From Lasiodiplodia sp. COLG20 (lineage: Eukaryota > Ascomycota > Dothideomycetes > Botryosphaeriales > Botryosphaeriaceae): a DNA stretch of 64,000 bases. This document shows, in pieces, positions 27,064-64,000 of this stretch. The notes under the pieces are model-generated. The model saw only the letters and a program-made list of their open reading frames with translations, did not search any database and was not told where the DNA came from. Both the position numbers and the translations under genes were made by a program. The stretch covers positions 2,170,001 through 2,234,000 of the forward strand of contig VNWV01000002.1 of NCBI GenBank assembly GCA_009801085.1, in the 5' to 3' direction. How positions within the stretch are numbered: the first letter of the stretch is position 1; every line of letters starts with the position of its first letter.

Positions 27064-30000
27064 CTAACCAATCATCCCCATATCCTCGAAGCCGTCCATG
27101 TTGGTCGTAATTCCAAACAGGTCTTTGAGATCCTGCTCGTTGCTAGGCGCAGGAGGGGCGTTGAAGAAGTCGTACGGCGCGCCGAGTTCGGTGGTGCCCC
27201 AGTTGGGGATTTTCTCGTCGCCCGTTCCAAGGCTGTCCCGCCAGAAACCGTACGGTCCAGTCATCTCTTGGTTGTCCTCGTTTTGCGGAACCGTCATGTT
27301 GTTGGATTCGTCCAGCACGAAGAGCGAGTCCATCATGCTGCTGAAGTCTACGTCGGCGTCCATGGCGCGCTTGTTCCATTCGGCGTCGTCGCCCGCGATG
27401 GTGATGTTGAGCTTGTCGTTTTCGCTGATGTCGCTGCTGCCCGTCTCCTTGGAATCCTTAGTCGAAGCTGGAGAAGGAGTAGTAGCAGGGGTCGTGCTGC
27501 GAGGCTCTACCTTCTCCTTGTTCTTCTCCTGCTCTTCCCGTTCCAGATCCTCCTTCGCGATGAATGCAGTGGCGGGTAGTTCGAGCATGGCTTTGGCGAC
27601 ATCTTCATCGGCGAACATGAAATGAAGCTGATCGGGCGAGATCGGGCACTCGTCCCAAGGGTTCTCCAAAGGTTTCGGCGCCGACTGGTCTTCCATCGTG
27701 GCGTCAGCAGCCTTGTTTGCGTCTTTCATGGCCTTGCTGGGCGTCCGATTCATGACCGGGGCGCCGTTGGATCCAGGAGTCTGGGCCTTGATAGCCATCT
27801 GAGGCGTCTTGAAACTGGCCGACGGGGAGTTCTTGATACCAGTCTGCGTTGGCACACGGTTCATAGGAGTAGCTCCCGCGCCCGTGGCAGGTGTGCCTGC
27901 CTCTGCCTTGACTTGAGGAGTCTGACCAGATTTCGTTGCGAGCTGTTTCGCCATCGGAGGCGCTGGCTTGCCGCGGTGGGCAGCGTTGTTTTCCAGCTTC
28001 GGCTTCGAACTTCCATCGGGATTGAGACCCAATCCCTCATTGACGGCGTCGATGGCGAACTTCAGAGGATCCTCGACCTTGGCATGCGCATCCTTGACGT
28101 GAGCCTCAAGCTCGTCCTTCGTCTCGAAGCCTCTTGCGCTGAAGTCGCAAGTTGGGTGCGGGCAGGTGAAACGCGGCTTCGCTGGTACCACTGGTTGAGG
28201 GGCTCTTGTGATCTCCGGAGACGGCTTGTTTCCGACCATTGGCGAGGTTGTCTGAACAGGCGTCTGGCTCGGGGTGGATGTCGTCGACATGTTGTTATGC
28301 TTCCTCTTCTTGCTTTGCGGTAGCTTGAGCTTCTCAGGAGTAAGTGGGTTCGCAGCGTTAGGGGCGTACAAAGGAGCGCCGTTCGGAGACTGGCCACCGC
28401 CGAATGAGAATGGCGCATGAGCAGAAGTTGGAGCAGCCGGAGGCTTGTTGACCCCAGCATTGGAAGGTGCGCGGGACCGTTGAAGCTGCTCCTGCCGCAA
28501 CTTCTCCAAATTGACGGCGTTCAGCTCCGCCCCCTGCCCACCTTGGACGTTGGCAGCACCTGGCTGTTGCTGTTGCTGGGCTACTTCCTGCCCGTTGGCT
28601 TGCGACTGAGCCTTCTCGTTGTGGTTTTCAGCAACAACGGCCTTGATATAGGAGCTGATGTGGGTGAGCAGCTTCTGGAGGGTTGCTGCGTTTACGGTAA
28701 CACTGTCTTTCAGCTTCCTGGTCTGAGGATCCAACTGCGCATGCAGCAAATGGCGCTGGGCCGGGTCAGCACAATCATTGGACACGTAGGGCAGGCAACT
28801 TACAACTTGGATGATACCCTTGGCGCGATCTCCGTCCCGATGTTTAACCCAGTCCATGAACATAATCTGGTCAAGCTTGTTAATCCACGTGAGCGCCTTC
28901 TGCACCTCATTTGCCATCTGATCCTTCACCGCTTGCGAAAGATCCGGTATCTGCGGCCTAGGCTCCATGTTCTTCATGAATTCGTGCATCATCTGGGTGA
29001 ACTGCCGCTTAAGCACGTCCTGGGGGGCGCCCTGCCCATTAGCACCCACAGCCTGCTTGTTTCCTTGCACTTGAGCGGCTTGGATCATCGACTGGCGATA
29101 AGCTGCTTGTTGCTGCGGGTTCAGCGCATTGAACTGCTCCTTGGTCAAGTTCGGTGGCCGTTGCTGAGATTGCGTCGGCTGCATTGGCGGCGCCTGGTTC
29201 TTGTTCGGATCTTGAACCTCGACAACGTCGTCATTCGGCCTCTTAACACCCTTTTGGGGCTGCATCTTGGGAGTAGCGTTCGGTGCTTGGCCAGGCTGTG
29301 GCCCAGGCCTCTGGGGTGCCTGAGGCTGCTGTGCAGGCTTCGGTTGAGGAGTGGCCTGAGGTTGAGGAGCTTGGCCAGGTCGCTGAGGCTGCTGCAGATT
29401 TTGACCTTGTTGCATGCCAAAGTTTCCACCGGGAACCTGCTGCATCATTCCCTGCTGTTGACCCTGTTGTTGCAGTTGTCTCTGCTGTTGCAGCCTGATC
29501 ATCGCAATCTGCTGCCTCAACTGTTCGTCGGACAAGTTGGCAACCTTTGGACCTTGCTGTTGCCTGATCCTCTGGATGTCCTGCGCTGAGATCTGCTGGG
29601 CAAGGGAGAGCATGCGCTGGCGTTGTGCATTCAGGGCCATCTGTTGTTGCATTTGCGCTGGATTTCCACCGGCGCCGGCCATCATAGGCGCCTGAGGAGC
29701 CTGCCCGTTCGGGTGGCCAGGGCCAAGAGCGCCACCGGCTCCATTTGGCAATCCCCCAGGAAGTCCGTGCATGCCTGCATTGTTCGCCTGCTGCTGTTGC
29801 TGTGCTTGCTGCTGGCCCTGTTGCGTCATCCTCTCGTAGTGGACTCTCTGGAACTCGTTCAACTTCTCCAGGGAAATGACATTGGGGTTTCTAGACGCCC
29901 ACTCCTTCAACTGTCCCCAAGACTTAATGTTATCCGGCACATTAATTCCTTGATTCCTGATACCCTGGGTCACAATTGGGGGAAACGGTGCTTGGTCCAT

Positions 30001-31969
30001 GCGTTGTAGAATCTGCGGGTTCAAGGCCGGGCCGTTTTGCTGCTGTTGTTGTCTTCGGAGCAATTCCTGCTGGAGGCGCTGTTGCATCTGAGCCTGGCTC
30101 ATCATTCCGAGCTGCTGGTTCTGCTGGAGGAAATTCTGTGCCATTCCCATAGGTCCGGGCTGTCCACCTTGCAAAGCTTGTGGAGTCATCTGTAGGCCAG
30201 GCTGGGAGACGTTCGCATTGCCTCCCCAACCGGCTTGCTTCTGGGCAATCCATTTCCCAAGTACAACGCGAAATTGTTCCTCAGGCAGTTCCATCATCTT
30301 TTGCCTTATGGGTCCGGGTACGTCACCCGGAATCTGACTTGCTCGGGAAGCTTGAGGGGCTCCGGGCATCTGGGCTTGGGCAGCCGCGGCTCTTTGTTGT
30401 GCGAGCTGAACAGCTTGTGCAGCATTGATCCCCGGGGCCATACCTTGAGGCATCTGCTGACCAGGTTGCTGCGGCCTCTGCCCAGGCGTTGCGTTCCCTT
30501 GCTGACCCGGTGGTACCATCGGTCGAGTAAGCATCGGCATCGCTCCGTTCTGAGGCTGGCCTGGGCCCATGTTGAAGCCGCCCATTTGATTGCGAAGGGC
30601 CATTTGTTGCGCCTGCGCCTGAGACTGAGGGACACCTTGGCCGCGCGCTTGCGCTTGTGCGGCCTGCATTTGTCGGATCGCGTTCTCTCGCTGTGCCTGC
30701 TGCAAATTGAAAGGCGGCTGTTGGCCGGAGTTCCTGTTCTGGCCAGGCGCCATGCCTTGGCCGTTAACTTGTCCGGGCTGTCCGCCACCCATCGGATTGA
30801 AACCACCCATCTGATTCATGTTGGCGTTGTTGCTTGCAGGGACCACATCGTGCCCCGCTTGAGCGGAGCGCATGGCATCTGCTTGCTGGTTGGTGAGCTG
30901 AGCGAAATCAAAGTCGGCATTGCCAGGAATGCCGCCCTGTTGGGGCTGTCCGTTGCCCATCTGAGGGGTCCGCTGCATCATCCCTTGGTTCGGCGCTCCA
31001 CGACCCATGCCCTGATTTTGCTGCTGCCCGAACTGACCACCTGGCTGGCCCTTCTTCATAGAGATGAGCATCGATTGTGCTCGGTTTCGGCAATGAAGCA
31101 TGACCGGATCAACGCCTCGCGCTTCCAACATCTGCCGCCTTTCGGGAGGTAACTGCGCCATCTGAGCCCTAATCCGTGCCTCCTCGTCTGGCGTAATTCT
31201 CGCTCGTAATTGTCTTGTCAAGGCCTCGAGCCTTTGTTGCTCCTCTTGAGAGAACTGGGGCCCTCTTGCCATCTGCTGCTGCACATGTTGTTGCGGGGCT
31301 TGGGGCTGGATACCGGGGTTCTCCATGCCCATCGATGACGGGTTCTGGGTCATAGGCAGTGGTGAGGCCTGCATCTGATGCTGCAGTTGAGGAGGAAATG
31401 GCTGCTGGAATCCGTTCTGTCCTTGGTTCGAGCCGCTAGGTTGCATCGGAGTCTGAGGCAACATGCCTGCCTGGTGGTTCGCAGCGTTGTTGTTGTGCAT
31501 CATCGACGCTTGTATAGCTTGCACGTTCTGTTGGCGCATGCCTTGAAGACGCTGCAGCAAGCCCTTCACCGAAGTTACGTACTCATCCTGCGAAATGTCA
31601 GTACCGTGGTTGGGAGGGTCAGGCGCACGGCTAGCTCACTCTGCTGCCAGACTTGAGGAAGCGCTCGTTCTCGTTGCCAAAAGCCATTTGTAGAACTTGT
31701 TGGTCTGGCACATCTGTCTTGGCCAGCCTTATTGCGGTATAGCTAAGGCGGGTGTCAGCGACGTCAAAAGGCAGACGGGGAGCGAGCGTGAATTACATGT
31801 TCCATAGCATACCCGCACGCTGCTCGGCATTCAGAGTGGCCTGCCATTGCCCGGGCTGCGGGCGATGCGACTGTCGCAGCTGGGCGAGTATGACCTGCTG
31901 CAGGCGCTGCTGTGGCGGAGGGTGTTGCTGCTGACCGCCCATCATGTTGCCAAAGCCTTGTGCGTTCAT
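27064..31969 (-). CDS. MED15: Mediator subunit 15 (MED15/Gal11-like coactivator)
   Basis: Three exons on the minus strand: 31797-31969, 31640-31742 and 27064-31587, giving 1599 residues. MED15 sits in the Mediator tail and links DNA-bound activators to RNA polymerase II. The N-terminal KIX-type activator-binding domain (about 40-115) contains Trp-Gln-Ala-Thr-Leu-Asn, Glu-Gln-Arg, Leu-Trp-Asn and Glu-Asn-Glu-Arg-Phe, and it needs all three exons. Most of the middle is Gln/Pro/Asn/Met-rich disordered sequence, with short conserved helices such as Pro-Ile-Arg-Gln-Lys-Met-Met and a folded block around Asn-Glu-Val-Gln-Lys-Ala-Leu-Thr-Trp-Ile. A C2H2-like finger (C-x4-C-x12-H-x4-H) appears near residues 1233-1260. 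The C-terminus is acidic. The N-terminal and overall architecture support MED15; a diverged Gln-rich coactivator is the alternative. Confidence 0.82.
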
Positions 31970-61955: not shown

Positions 61956-64000
61956 CTAGTTCTTTGGCGATAGCGGCAAGCCCGGGAAGTGAGGAGGCAT
62001 GAAGAAACCCGAAGTCCGGTCATGATTGCGCTTCGTGATAATGCTCTCCTCCTCGGCTCTGGGCTCCTCGGCTGCTGGCTGCGGCGGCGGCACTGGCACC
62101 GACGACCTCTTCCAGGTGATCTTCAAGAGTTCTTTTACGAACGCCTCGATAGGTTTCGCGAGTTTTTCGATGATGACGAGGGAGCCCGATCCGATGCCAA
62201 TGCCTGTGCCCCATCCCCTCCTGGCGACAGCAGCGTCGGTGTTGCCGCCCTCGACGGCGACCTCGCTGCCCTCCACAGCCGGTGCTGGCGGTGAGCGCCG
62301 CGACCAGCCCTCCAGCTCCGCCTCCGCCTCCGCCTCCAGCTCCTCCTCCTCCTCCCCCCTCTTCGTCTTCGTTGCACCATCATCAACCTTCTTCTTCGAC
62401 TCCACCACCGGGTCGGAAGGAACCAGGCCCGTCACGACTCTCATGATGTAGTCGACGGCGATCTGGAGGGCGCTCTTTTTGCCTTCGGCCTCGGCGGCAA
62501 CGTGAGCGACGGTGTTGCCATCGACGGTGAGGTCCAGTGCCACCGACGACCTCTTCATCCTCTTCCTCTTGTCGACCTCGTCGTCCGGCGGGGGATCGCC
62601 GGCCGGGATGAACATGACTGGCGGCGTAGGATCTATTTCGCCCTGAATCGCACTGTCTATTATCCCAGCCCATTGGCCCGTCGTCCAGATGTCTTGTGGC
62701 GACCTCTTCTTGGCAGCAACGGTGGTGTTGTCGTCGTCGTCGGTGGGGGCATGAGCATGAGCGAGATCGCGCGTCGCGACGTCGGTGAAGCAAAAGATGA
62801 AGAATAATCTGCAGAGAATAAACTTGGCCGGCGTCCATTTCCGCTTGTCGAGCAGTGTGATGCTACTGCTGCTGCTGCCCTCGGCGGTGGCGACGGTTGC
62901 ATCATCCGCGACGGCGGGAAGAAGATGGCGCTTGGTCACGACGTTGCTGCACCACCAGGGAAGTGGAGCTCCGCATTCCCGAAGGGCGCTCTCTTTCGCC
63001 TCGGGCTCGGCCGACCGCTTGCCAAGGGCGGTGTTATCGCTGCTGCTGCTGATCTGCGACGCAGCATCATCCAGACCACGACGCCAGACCACGGGGCAGA
63101 TGTAGAAGAATATGACACAGATGGCGGTCCTTGCCGGCTTCGAGAGCCTCTTGGCGATGATGGGCATGATGGGCATGTCGATGTCGCTGATGTCGCCGAA
63201 GCTGTCGTCGTCGCCGCCGTCCGCCAGCTCTCTCTTCTCCGGTCCATTGCCCTGAGCGTCTTTGCCATTTGACAGAATCGCCCACGGGCAAAGAAGGATG
63301 AAAAGTAGGCATATCGTCGCCTTCACCCCCGTCGGCATCGGTGGGTCCCCCCTCTTCGCGACGGTGACGGCAGAGCTGCTGCTGCTGCTGCCGCTGCCGC
63401 CGTCGGCCAGCTGTCTCTTTTCCCTTCCATCACCGTATAACGGGCACAAAAATGGCAGAAATATGCATGTCATCACCATCCCCGTCATTTCCGAGGTCGA
63501 TTTTACCCTCTTCACGAGGCTGACGACGGAGCTGCCGCTGCCACTGTTGTCACTGCCACTGCCGTCCACCAGCTGTCTCTTTCCGAGCTCTCCCGCCTCA
63601 TGTAATTCGTCCACCACCAGCCGTCTTCTCCTCTGTCCGCCGCCCTTTGGCCGATTGTCTATCTCCGAACTCATCGCGATCGGGCAGCCGACGAAGGGGA
63701 AAACAATGCAAATAGTGATCTTGAGCGCGTCAGGCATCCAGGGCGTCTTCCTCTTCGCAAGAAGATCAAGATCACGACGACGACGATGGTCGCCACTGCT
63801 GCCGTCTTCCGCCAGCTGCTGTCTTCTCTTCGGCTGATTTTCCTTCTCCGACACCATCGCGATCGGGCAGCCGATGAAGGGGAGAAGGAAGCACAGAGCG
63901 ATCTTGAGCCCGTCGGGCATCGGGGCCAACTTCCTCTTCGCAAGAAGACCAACATCACGACGCGTGACGACGGACCCGTCGAAGACGTTGCTGTCGCCCG
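61956..64000 (-). CDS. Repeat precursor with dibasic sites and paired-Cys hydrophobic cores (partial, 5' end outside window)
   Basis: The minus-strand frame is open from the window edge to the stop at 61956; 657 residues follow 63929 and about 23 more precede it, with no start, so the gene is cut by the window. The chain is divided by dibasic Lys-Arg sites, the cleavage signal of the late-Golgi protease Kex2, about every 20-50 residues (numbered from 63929: 59-60, 117-118, 140-141, 171-172, 192-193, 232-233, 260-261, 304-305, 333-334, 362-363, 408-409). All 14 cysteines form seven pairs with 6 or 7 residues between, starting at residues 13, 74, 155, 207, 271, 319 and 373. The enclosed stretches are hydrophobic (for example CIVFPFVGC) except the sixth, CGAPLPWWC, which is mainly Gly/Ala/Pro/Leu/Trp. 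Ser/Asp-rich spacers starting Gln/Glu-Leu-Ala-Asp alternate with them. The cysteine-free C-terminal third is acidic and Pro-rich. I recognise no family; a multi-span membrane protein is the alternative. Confidence 0.75.
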   Translation of the reverse strand, partial: GDSNVFDGSVVTRRDVGLLAKRKLAPMPDGLKIALCFLLPFIGCPIAMVSEKENQPKRRQQLAEDGSSGDHRRRRDLDLLAKRKTPWMPDALKITICIVFPFVGCPIAMSSEIDNRPKGGGQRRRRLVVDELHEAGELGKRQLVDGSGSDNSGSGSSVVSLVKRVKSTSEMTGMVMTCIFLPFLCPLYGDGREKRQLADGGSGSSSSSSAVTVAKRGDPPMPTGVKATICLLFILLCPWAILSNGKDAQGNGPEKRELADGGDDDSFGDISDIDMPIMPIIAKRLSKPARTAICVIFFYICPVVWRRGLDDAASQISSSSDNTALGKRSAEPEAKESALRECGAPLPWWCSNVVTKRHLLPAVADDATVATAEGSSSSSITLLDKRKWTPAKFILCRLFFIFCFTDVATRDLAHAHAPTDDDDNTTVAAKKRSPQDIWTTGQWAGIIDSAIQGEIDPTPPVMFIPAGDPPPDDEVDKRKRMKRSSVALDLTVDGNTVAHVAAEAEGKKSALQIAVDYIMRVVTGLVPSDPVVESKKKVDDGATKTKRGEEEEELEAEAEAELEGWSRRSPPAPAVEGSEVAVEGGNTDAAVARRGWGTGIGIGSGSLVIIEKLAKPIEAFVKELLKITWKRSSVPVPPPQPAAEEPRAEEESIITKRNHDRTSGFFMPPHFPGLPLSPKN
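63673..63975. repeat. 183-bp (61-codon) tandem duplication inside the repeat precursor
   Basis: ATCGCGATCGGGCAGCCGA begins at 63673 and again at 63856, and matching continues with scattered differences into CTTCCTCTTCGCAAGAAGA in both copies. The period of 183 bases keeps the frame. It encodes two nearly identical peptide units, each with Met-Pro-Asp-Xaa-Leu-Lys-Ile and Gly-Cys-Pro-Ile-Ala-Met around the Cys pair. Confidence 0.9.

Follow-up and report, generated by a model that had tools for sequence, protein, structure and literature searches.

The gene studied here is real, well ordered and so far solitary, and its sequence describes a Kex2-type polyprotein with mostly hydrophobic cores, each holding a pair of cysteines, whose processing is predicted. 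It sits at one end of the window, the whole stretch of 64,000 nucleotides that was analysed (C12:2170001-2234000), in a genome of 43.5 Mb distributed over 88 contigs. The open reading frame runs over C12:2231956-2235204 on the minus strand and encodes 1082 residues followed by a stop. Its ATG, at C12:2235204, lies beyond the window edge (base 64000), the stop ends at window position 61956, and the open frame within the window amounts to 680 residues.

61956..64000, minus strand: in-window part of the 1082-residue precursor frame (residues 403-1082 and stop), with no internal stop

Reading frame and overall layout of the precursor

From base composition, the chance of 1082 open codons in one frame is 3×10−15. 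The sense frame had the highest codon score of the six in 3 of 3 segments, with zero stops, while each of the other five contained 2 or more stops per segment; third-position G+C of the gene is 0.79. Within residues 417-834, the synonymous-codon score taken alone was near zero (5.6 over 402 codons), and weakest in the core region. This last value, together with the low-complexity stretches, the absence of relatives in two protein searches (see below) and a dN above dS over the 44 codons compared between the first two cores, would fit a young or decaying lineage-specific frame with little expression or function. We hold this to be improbable, given the 1082 open codons, the top score in all three segments, and the ordered pattern of cysteines, Lys-Arg (KR) pairs and P4 residues described in the next section.

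A preliminary description of this DNA had proposed a secreted precursor, and the sequence past position 64000 agrees with it, as it provides an ATG and a start which, by inspection, resembles a signal peptide (residues 1-20, with an ATA motif at residues 18-20, and a Kyte-Doolittle value of 1.66 across residues 5-23). A Lys/Pro-rich low-complexity linker follows this segment. Val/Ile-rich repeats of 5-6 residues each occupy residues ~300-416, residues 425-834 comprise seven cores and their spacers, and residues 835-1082 form a tail of more dibasic-flanked pieces. The whole precursor matched no Pfam family above the curated cut-off. A PDB sequence search returned 27 matches up to E 1, just one of them below 0.001; this ribosomal-protein match covers the Lys-rich stretch 141-204 and was set aside as low complexity.

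Residues ~286-416 (L004:2-3205, minus strand, mostly outside the window) form hexapeptide-like repeats, which is odd within a peptide precursor. Of the five AlphaFold2 models of residues 286-416, one shows a beta-solenoid (mean pLDDT 69, against 31-42 for the others). Foldseek found no match to the model at E 0.001, and the Pfam hexapeptide (left-handed-helix) matches stayed under cut-off (21.2 bits against 54, E 3×10−4). A beta-solenoid is thus a possible structure for this region, to be taken as a lead only.

Cysteine-pair cores, acidic spacers and Lys-Arg sites

The seven cores, named B1 to B7, are as follows. With their adjoining basic residues they make up 246 of the 1082 residues of the precursor.

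63831..63932, minus strand: core B1, KLAPMPDGLKIALCFLLPFIGCPIAMVSEKENQP (residues 425-458)
63633..63749, minus strand: core B2, a duplicate of B1 at the DNA level (residues 486-524)
63423..63506, minus strand: core B3 (residues 567-594)
63237..63350, minus strand: core B4 (residues 619-656)
63084..63146, minus strand: core B5 (residues 687-707)
62934..63014, minus strand: core B6, the Trp/Pro variant (residues 731-757)
62712..62840, minus strand: core B7 (residues 789-831)

All 14 cysteines of residues 417-834 fall into seven pairs (438-446, 499-507, 580-587, 632-639, 696-703, 744-752 and 798-805), with x7 spacing in three and x6 in four. These positions, worked out by hand, are the pairs listed in the preliminary description, whose claim of seven different Cys-pair peptides is supported as well. 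The 15th cysteine of the protein, at residue 251, is outside the window. When 14 cysteines were placed at random in 418 residues, 200000 times, six or seven x6/x7 pairs never arose; the best outcome was five, obtained in 4 placements.

The Kyte-Doolittle mean within the Cys pairs is 2.29, a value reached in 0 of 20000 shuffles. Cores had all been described as hydrophobic, except for one with a Trp/Pro stretch: this holds for six of the seven, and the CGAPLPWWC pair of B6, at just 0.03, is indeed not hydrophobic. Net charge of the cores ranges from −2 to +2. Chou-Fasman values prefer beta over alpha in all seven C...C stretches, and the hydrophobic cores, compared with shuffles, were unremarkable for an amphipathic helical pattern in 6 of 6 cases. 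Their six hydrophobic segments measure ~15-19 residues, and in three of them the Kyte-Doolittle value over 19 residues passes 1.6, the usual threshold for a membrane segment.

Between the cores lie spacers, of which all eight pieces carry a net negative charge. Most spacers begin with a QLADG-like sequence, and the six that were aligned all end in Lys-Arg.

63786..63821, minus strand: acidic spacer A1a, QQLAEDGSSGDH, net charge −3
63756..63773, minus strand: acidic spacer A1b, DLDLLA, net charge −2
63582..63620, minus strand: acidic spacer A2a, net charge −4
63513..63575, minus strand: acidic spacer A2b, net charge −2
63357..63413, minus strand: acidic spacer A3, net charge −1
63153..63230, minus strand: acidic spacer A4, net charge −8
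63021..63077, minus strand: acidic spacer A5, net charge −3
62847..62927, minus strand: acidic spacer A6, followed by KR (site LLDKR), net charge −4

Lys-Arg pairs are in strong excess, with 19 in residues 417-1082, when 5000 shuffles gave 2.8 on average and never more than 9. Many such sites had been claimed, correctly, and their number, put at eleven or more, was an undercount. The seven KR sites preceding cores carry L, L, L, V, I, L and L at P4. According to the account in PMC8528282, Leu or another aliphatic residue, Ala and Pro included, is favoured by Kex2 at this position. With a background of 21% I/L/V, an aliphatic P4 at all seven sites has a chance of 0.208^7 = 1.7×10−5 (calculated by hand). 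Among the KR sites following cores, I/L/V is found at P4 in 1 of 5, a figure that rises to 3 of 5 once Ala and Pro are included; after the remaining two cores come Arg runs in place of KR. The same account gives Asp at P3 as unfavourable for Kex2 (PMC8528282), and the site before B7 (LLDKR) has Asp at this position. With the first 21 residues taken off, cutting at KR and RR yields 27 fragments, the C-terminal piece included.

A kexin gene is present in the genome (best PDB match yeast Kexin, E 3×10−174, with the S8 and P domain layout). Kex2-type processing sites, another of the initial proposals, are thus backed by the KR enrichment, the P4 pattern and this gene. Two genes of proprotein-convertase type were seen (C88:913101-913361 and C23:1028326-1028586), the second being a possible additional processing enzyme.

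The same features bear on whether the product is cleaved at all. Six hydrophobic segments of ~15-19 residues, three of them above 1.6, would suit a multi-span membrane protein that stays uncleaved, its Lys-Arg pairs being ordinary loop charges. The KR enrichment and the aliphatic P4 residues speak against such a protein, as does the distribution of charge: in 5 of 6 segments, all but B2, the N side carries more positive charge than the C side, when this sense would be expected to switch from one membrane span to the next. AlphaFold2 gave residues 425-834 no confident fold (mean pLDDT 43, single sequence) and drew helices over several cores; single-sequence models of this kind are weak evidence in either direction. 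Altogether, we consider an uncleaved membrane protein quite unlikely, and a precursor that is both secreted and Kex2-processed is, on these sequence features, clearly probable.

Relations among the units were then compared. B1 and B2 are 81% identical in DNA over 135 bases, and are a duplication visible at this level. Across 44 codons, dN (0.236) is above dS (0.163), which suggests fast change, on a small sample. The 7 second-position changes between them all fall outside codons 433-450 (p 0.017), a boundary which was drawn after the data were seen, and to which the addition of residue 451 would bring one second-position change inside. This pattern suggests that hydrophobicity is kept while the sequence drifts. 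Among B1-B5 and B7, 13 of 15 pairs of cores are similar at shuffle p < 0.05, uncorrected, and B6 has no significant similarity to the other six in the shuffle test. In the alignment of all seven cores, the two cysteines alone are invariant. Spacers resemble one another in 7 of 15 pairs by the shuffle test.

Relatives and genomic neighbourhood

Two protein database searches, which reach annotated proteins of ~595-1893 residues, were made. Residues 400-1082 had no relative at E 1 among 7990 candidates scored, these being the proteins that share most words with the query, from which low-complexity words may have displaced true relatives. Residues 417-530 had none at E 10 among 310 candidates. The database does contain proteins of Lasiodiplodia, Diplodia and Neofusicoccum. 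As no homologue was found in these two limited searches, cross-species conservation of the precursor is without support. A search for a second copy in the genome gave, besides the gene itself, two low-complexity matches (E 0.06 and 1.8), at a sensitivity that divergent paralogues could escape. A literature search found nothing joining Lasiodiplodia with Kex2.

Around the gene, 63 frames passed the length cut-offs (33, 7, 12 and 11), and 29 were given to Pfam: 11 had a family match and 18 had none. Families include UAA transporter, KH, ADH, TPR, MFS, UPF0261, Rua1 and AAA, and the precursor gene has its place between the UAA transporter gene and the Rua1-like one. The Rua1-like neighbour (L004:6650-8116, minus strand) is 94% identical to its counterpart in Lasiodiplodia theobromae, 89% in Diplodia seriata, 85% in Neofusicoccum ribis and 79% in Botryosphaeria dothidea, identities which span 79-99% of the protein length; its nearest match overall is at 99%. 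These values place the host among the Botryosphaeriaceae, close to Lasiodiplodia. Two large open frames have no Pfam match at E 0.001, one of 1523 residues in the window (27064-31635, minus strand) and one of 889 residues at L006:5848-8517 (plus strand). Of the hydrophobin families, PF01185 matched neither here nor in any control genome, and PF06766 matched one fragment in the genome; these results weigh neither for nor against the idea of repellents taking the place of hydrophobins.

Peptides bridged by their cysteines, or cyclised in another way, had been put forward initially; enzymatic cyclisation as in dikaritins is one such way. A cyclised, dikaritin- or ustiloxin-type RiPP precursor would resemble ours in its signal peptide (by eye in our case) and its KR-flanked cores; the genome is that of an Ascomycete with UstYa (DUF3328) genes, and an alcohol-dehydrogenase-like gene and an MFS-type gene lie within ~11 kb and ~22 kb of the precursor, respectively. 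It differs in that the cores here are long, mutually different and carry Cys pairs, and in that none of the at least 22 UstYa matches of the genome is on contig C12. Likewise, Pfam recognised no UstYa among the 29 neighbouring frames, all of them above the length cut-offs. A RiPP cluster was judged unlikely because none of those matches is on this contig; enzymatic cyclisation of this type is thus not supported, and we regard a dikaritin-type precursor as very unlikely. At least three UstYa matches fall within 7 kb at each of three other places in the genome (C7:294873-301323, C34:13567-17679 and C57:26752-30607), which may be dikaritin loci.

C-x6-C is also the cysteine spacing of alpha-pheromone, and ascomycete alpha-pheromones have a repeated core of the W-C-x3-G-Q-x-C type. 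By eye, this type of motif was in none of the seven cores. Two conserved cysteines are described in the alpha-pheromones of Leotiomycetes, Sordariomycetes and some Dothideomycetes (PMC6339444), which lends something to the idea that the cores are signalling peptides of this kind. They are, however, without a Gly-Gln motif by eye, longer, and different from one another, and such a role is extremely unlikely. An alpha-pheromone gene, as a candidate ancestor, was also sought elsewhere in the genome with three patterns. The first gave 0 matches; the second gave 10, against 7 in the control, and was judged by eye; the third gave 21, against 5 in the control, and none of the 10 that were translated contained repeated KR-flanked copies.

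Comparison with known polyproteins and a proposed explanation

The precursor had been announced as a possible new class. In view of Rep1 (PMC4617103) and Ece1 (PMC6339444, PMC12153327), both described as cut by Kex2 into longer hydrophobic or amphipathic peptides, this is too strong; two conserved cysteines, too, are already reported in alpha-pheromones of several Ascomycota classes (PMC6339444). In Ustilago maydis, Kex2 cleavage of Rep1 releases ten peptides of 35-53 residues and one of 228 (PMC4617103); the Rep1 repeats, of 34-55 residues, are called imperfect in that account and strongly conserved in PMC2515848. The Rep1 peptides are described as amphipathic, and form surface-active amyloid-like fibrils (PMC4617103). 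Ece1 of Candida albicans has 271 residues and gives eight non-identical peptides (PMC6339444, PMC12153327), the accompanying ones shielding an extremely hydrophobic one from aggregation in the secretory pathway, as described in PMC12153327.

Comparison with these two proteins was made on their published descriptions. Our precursor shares Kex2 sites with Rep1, whose surface role is known (PMC4617103), and differs by its Cys pairs, its alternating acidic spacers and its strong divergence. It shares with Ece1 a signal peptide (by eye here), KR-separated non-identical peptides and very hydrophobic ones among them, and differs by its 1082 residues, its seven Cys-pair cores and its distinct spacers.

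Surveys of KEPs provide another point of comparison. As described in PMC6339444, a KEP in the sense of Le Marquer 2019 has a signal peptide and at least 4 KR/RR fragments of 2 or more residues, of which at least 3 are similar and fill 15% or more of the protein; TMHMM-positive proteins, and those with a motif share under 15% of length, were removed. The 27 fragments obtained here exceed the four, and the motif share by the minimal-motif rule, calculated by hand, is 23 × 7 / 1082 = 14.9%, against 15%. A positive TMHMM call is likely, as three of the six hydrophobic cores exceed 1.6 on the 19-residue window, and that survey, going by its description, would probably have dropped the precursor at the TMHMM step. 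The survey of Umemura 2020 required at least 3 closely similar tandem repeats between dibasic sites (PMC7329392). With this rule approximated as 24/40 identity, no 40-mer starting in the core region finds more than a single partner, and the best pair is B1 with B2. The precursor shares with KEPs a signal-like start, many KR/RR sites, repeated units and an orphan status common among them (2560 of 7878 KEPs are stand-alone in PMC7329392), and differs in repeats too divergent for the approximated Umemura rule. It was therefore not filed as a KEP in the survey sense, as it fails this rule in our approximation and probably fails that of Le Marquer.

The explanation that we put forward, tentatively and as somewhat short of probable, is that of a secreted, Kex2-processed polyprotein working like Rep1 and Ece1, with hydrophobic, disulfide-clasped, self-associating peptides and acidic spacers as solubilisers. 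The signal peptide recognised by eye would take the precursor into the ER. Kexin in the Golgi would then cut after Lys-Arg, presumably first at the strong aliphatic-x-Lys-Arg sites before the cores, and the basic residues left at the ends would be removed by a carboxypeptidase. Seven non-identical cores of ~21-43 residues would be released, six of them with a short hydrophobic segment, and each would be closed by a C-x6/7-C disulfide or disulfide-joined to a neighbour. The acidic Ser/Gly/Asp spacers could shield the cores here, keeping these greasy sequences dissolved and separated during secretion, the task proposed for the accompanying peptides of Ece1 (PMC12153327). Finally, and this is the least certain step, the cores may self-associate at the hyphal surface, or at an air, water or host interface, in the manner of the Rep1 repellent.

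Several observations weigh against this explanation: no homologue in the two limited protein searches, a synonymous-codon signal at its weakest in the core region, the Asp at P3 before B7, the similarity of spacers in just 7 of 15 pairs, and, for a role like that of Rep1, hydrophobic cores devoid of the amphipathic helical pattern, when Rep1 peptides are described as amphipathic (PMC4617103). Moreover, cores this hydrophobic might insert in the ER membrane rather than be secreted.

If processing is as predicted, the polyproteins that Kex2 cuts into non-identical peptides, such as Rep1 and Ece1, gain a Cys-clasped hydrophobic design from a further fungal lineage. Counts of hydrophobic precursors may be too low, because at least one KEP survey is described as removing proteins with predicted membrane segments before the KR-repeat step (PMC6339444). 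A bolder proposal, which we consider unlikely though worth stating, is that this gene is the first seen member of a fungal precursor class releasing a mixture of strongly hydrophobic peptides clasped by disulfides, which might form a repellent-like surface coat in Botryosphaeriaceae, and that surveys overlooked the class, its cores being discarded as membrane segments and its repeats being divergent.

The role of the released peptides could also be different, in that the same precursor and processing would produce peptides attacking the membranes of competitors or host, as the Ece1-derived peptide does, with no surface coat. Ece1 has the same plan, with a signal peptide and KR-separated non-identical peptides including an extremely hydrophobic, shielded one (PMC12153327), and one piece of the tail, C5, contains a strong amphipathic-helix stretch. 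The cores themselves are of low charge (−2 to +2), and an amphipathic helix is present in none of the six. Between these two roles, near-neutral cores that are not amphipathic helices incline us towards surface activity, which is a judgement: given processing, and by analogy, surface activity appears moderately probable, and membrane attack rather unlikely.

Two pieces of the tail deserve mention. The piece DGNTVAHVAAEAEGKKSALQIAVDYI (window 62364-62549, minus strand) resembles, we presume, a single ankyrin repeat, and matched nothing in Pfam. The other is the C5 piece itself.

62112..62216, minus strand: Cys-free predicted peptide C5, with an amphipathic-helix stretch (residues 997-1031)

Its helical moment is 0.68 in the best 18-residue window, a value equalled or exceeded by 2 of 5000 shuffles of that window, and this Cys-free piece may have another role than the cores.
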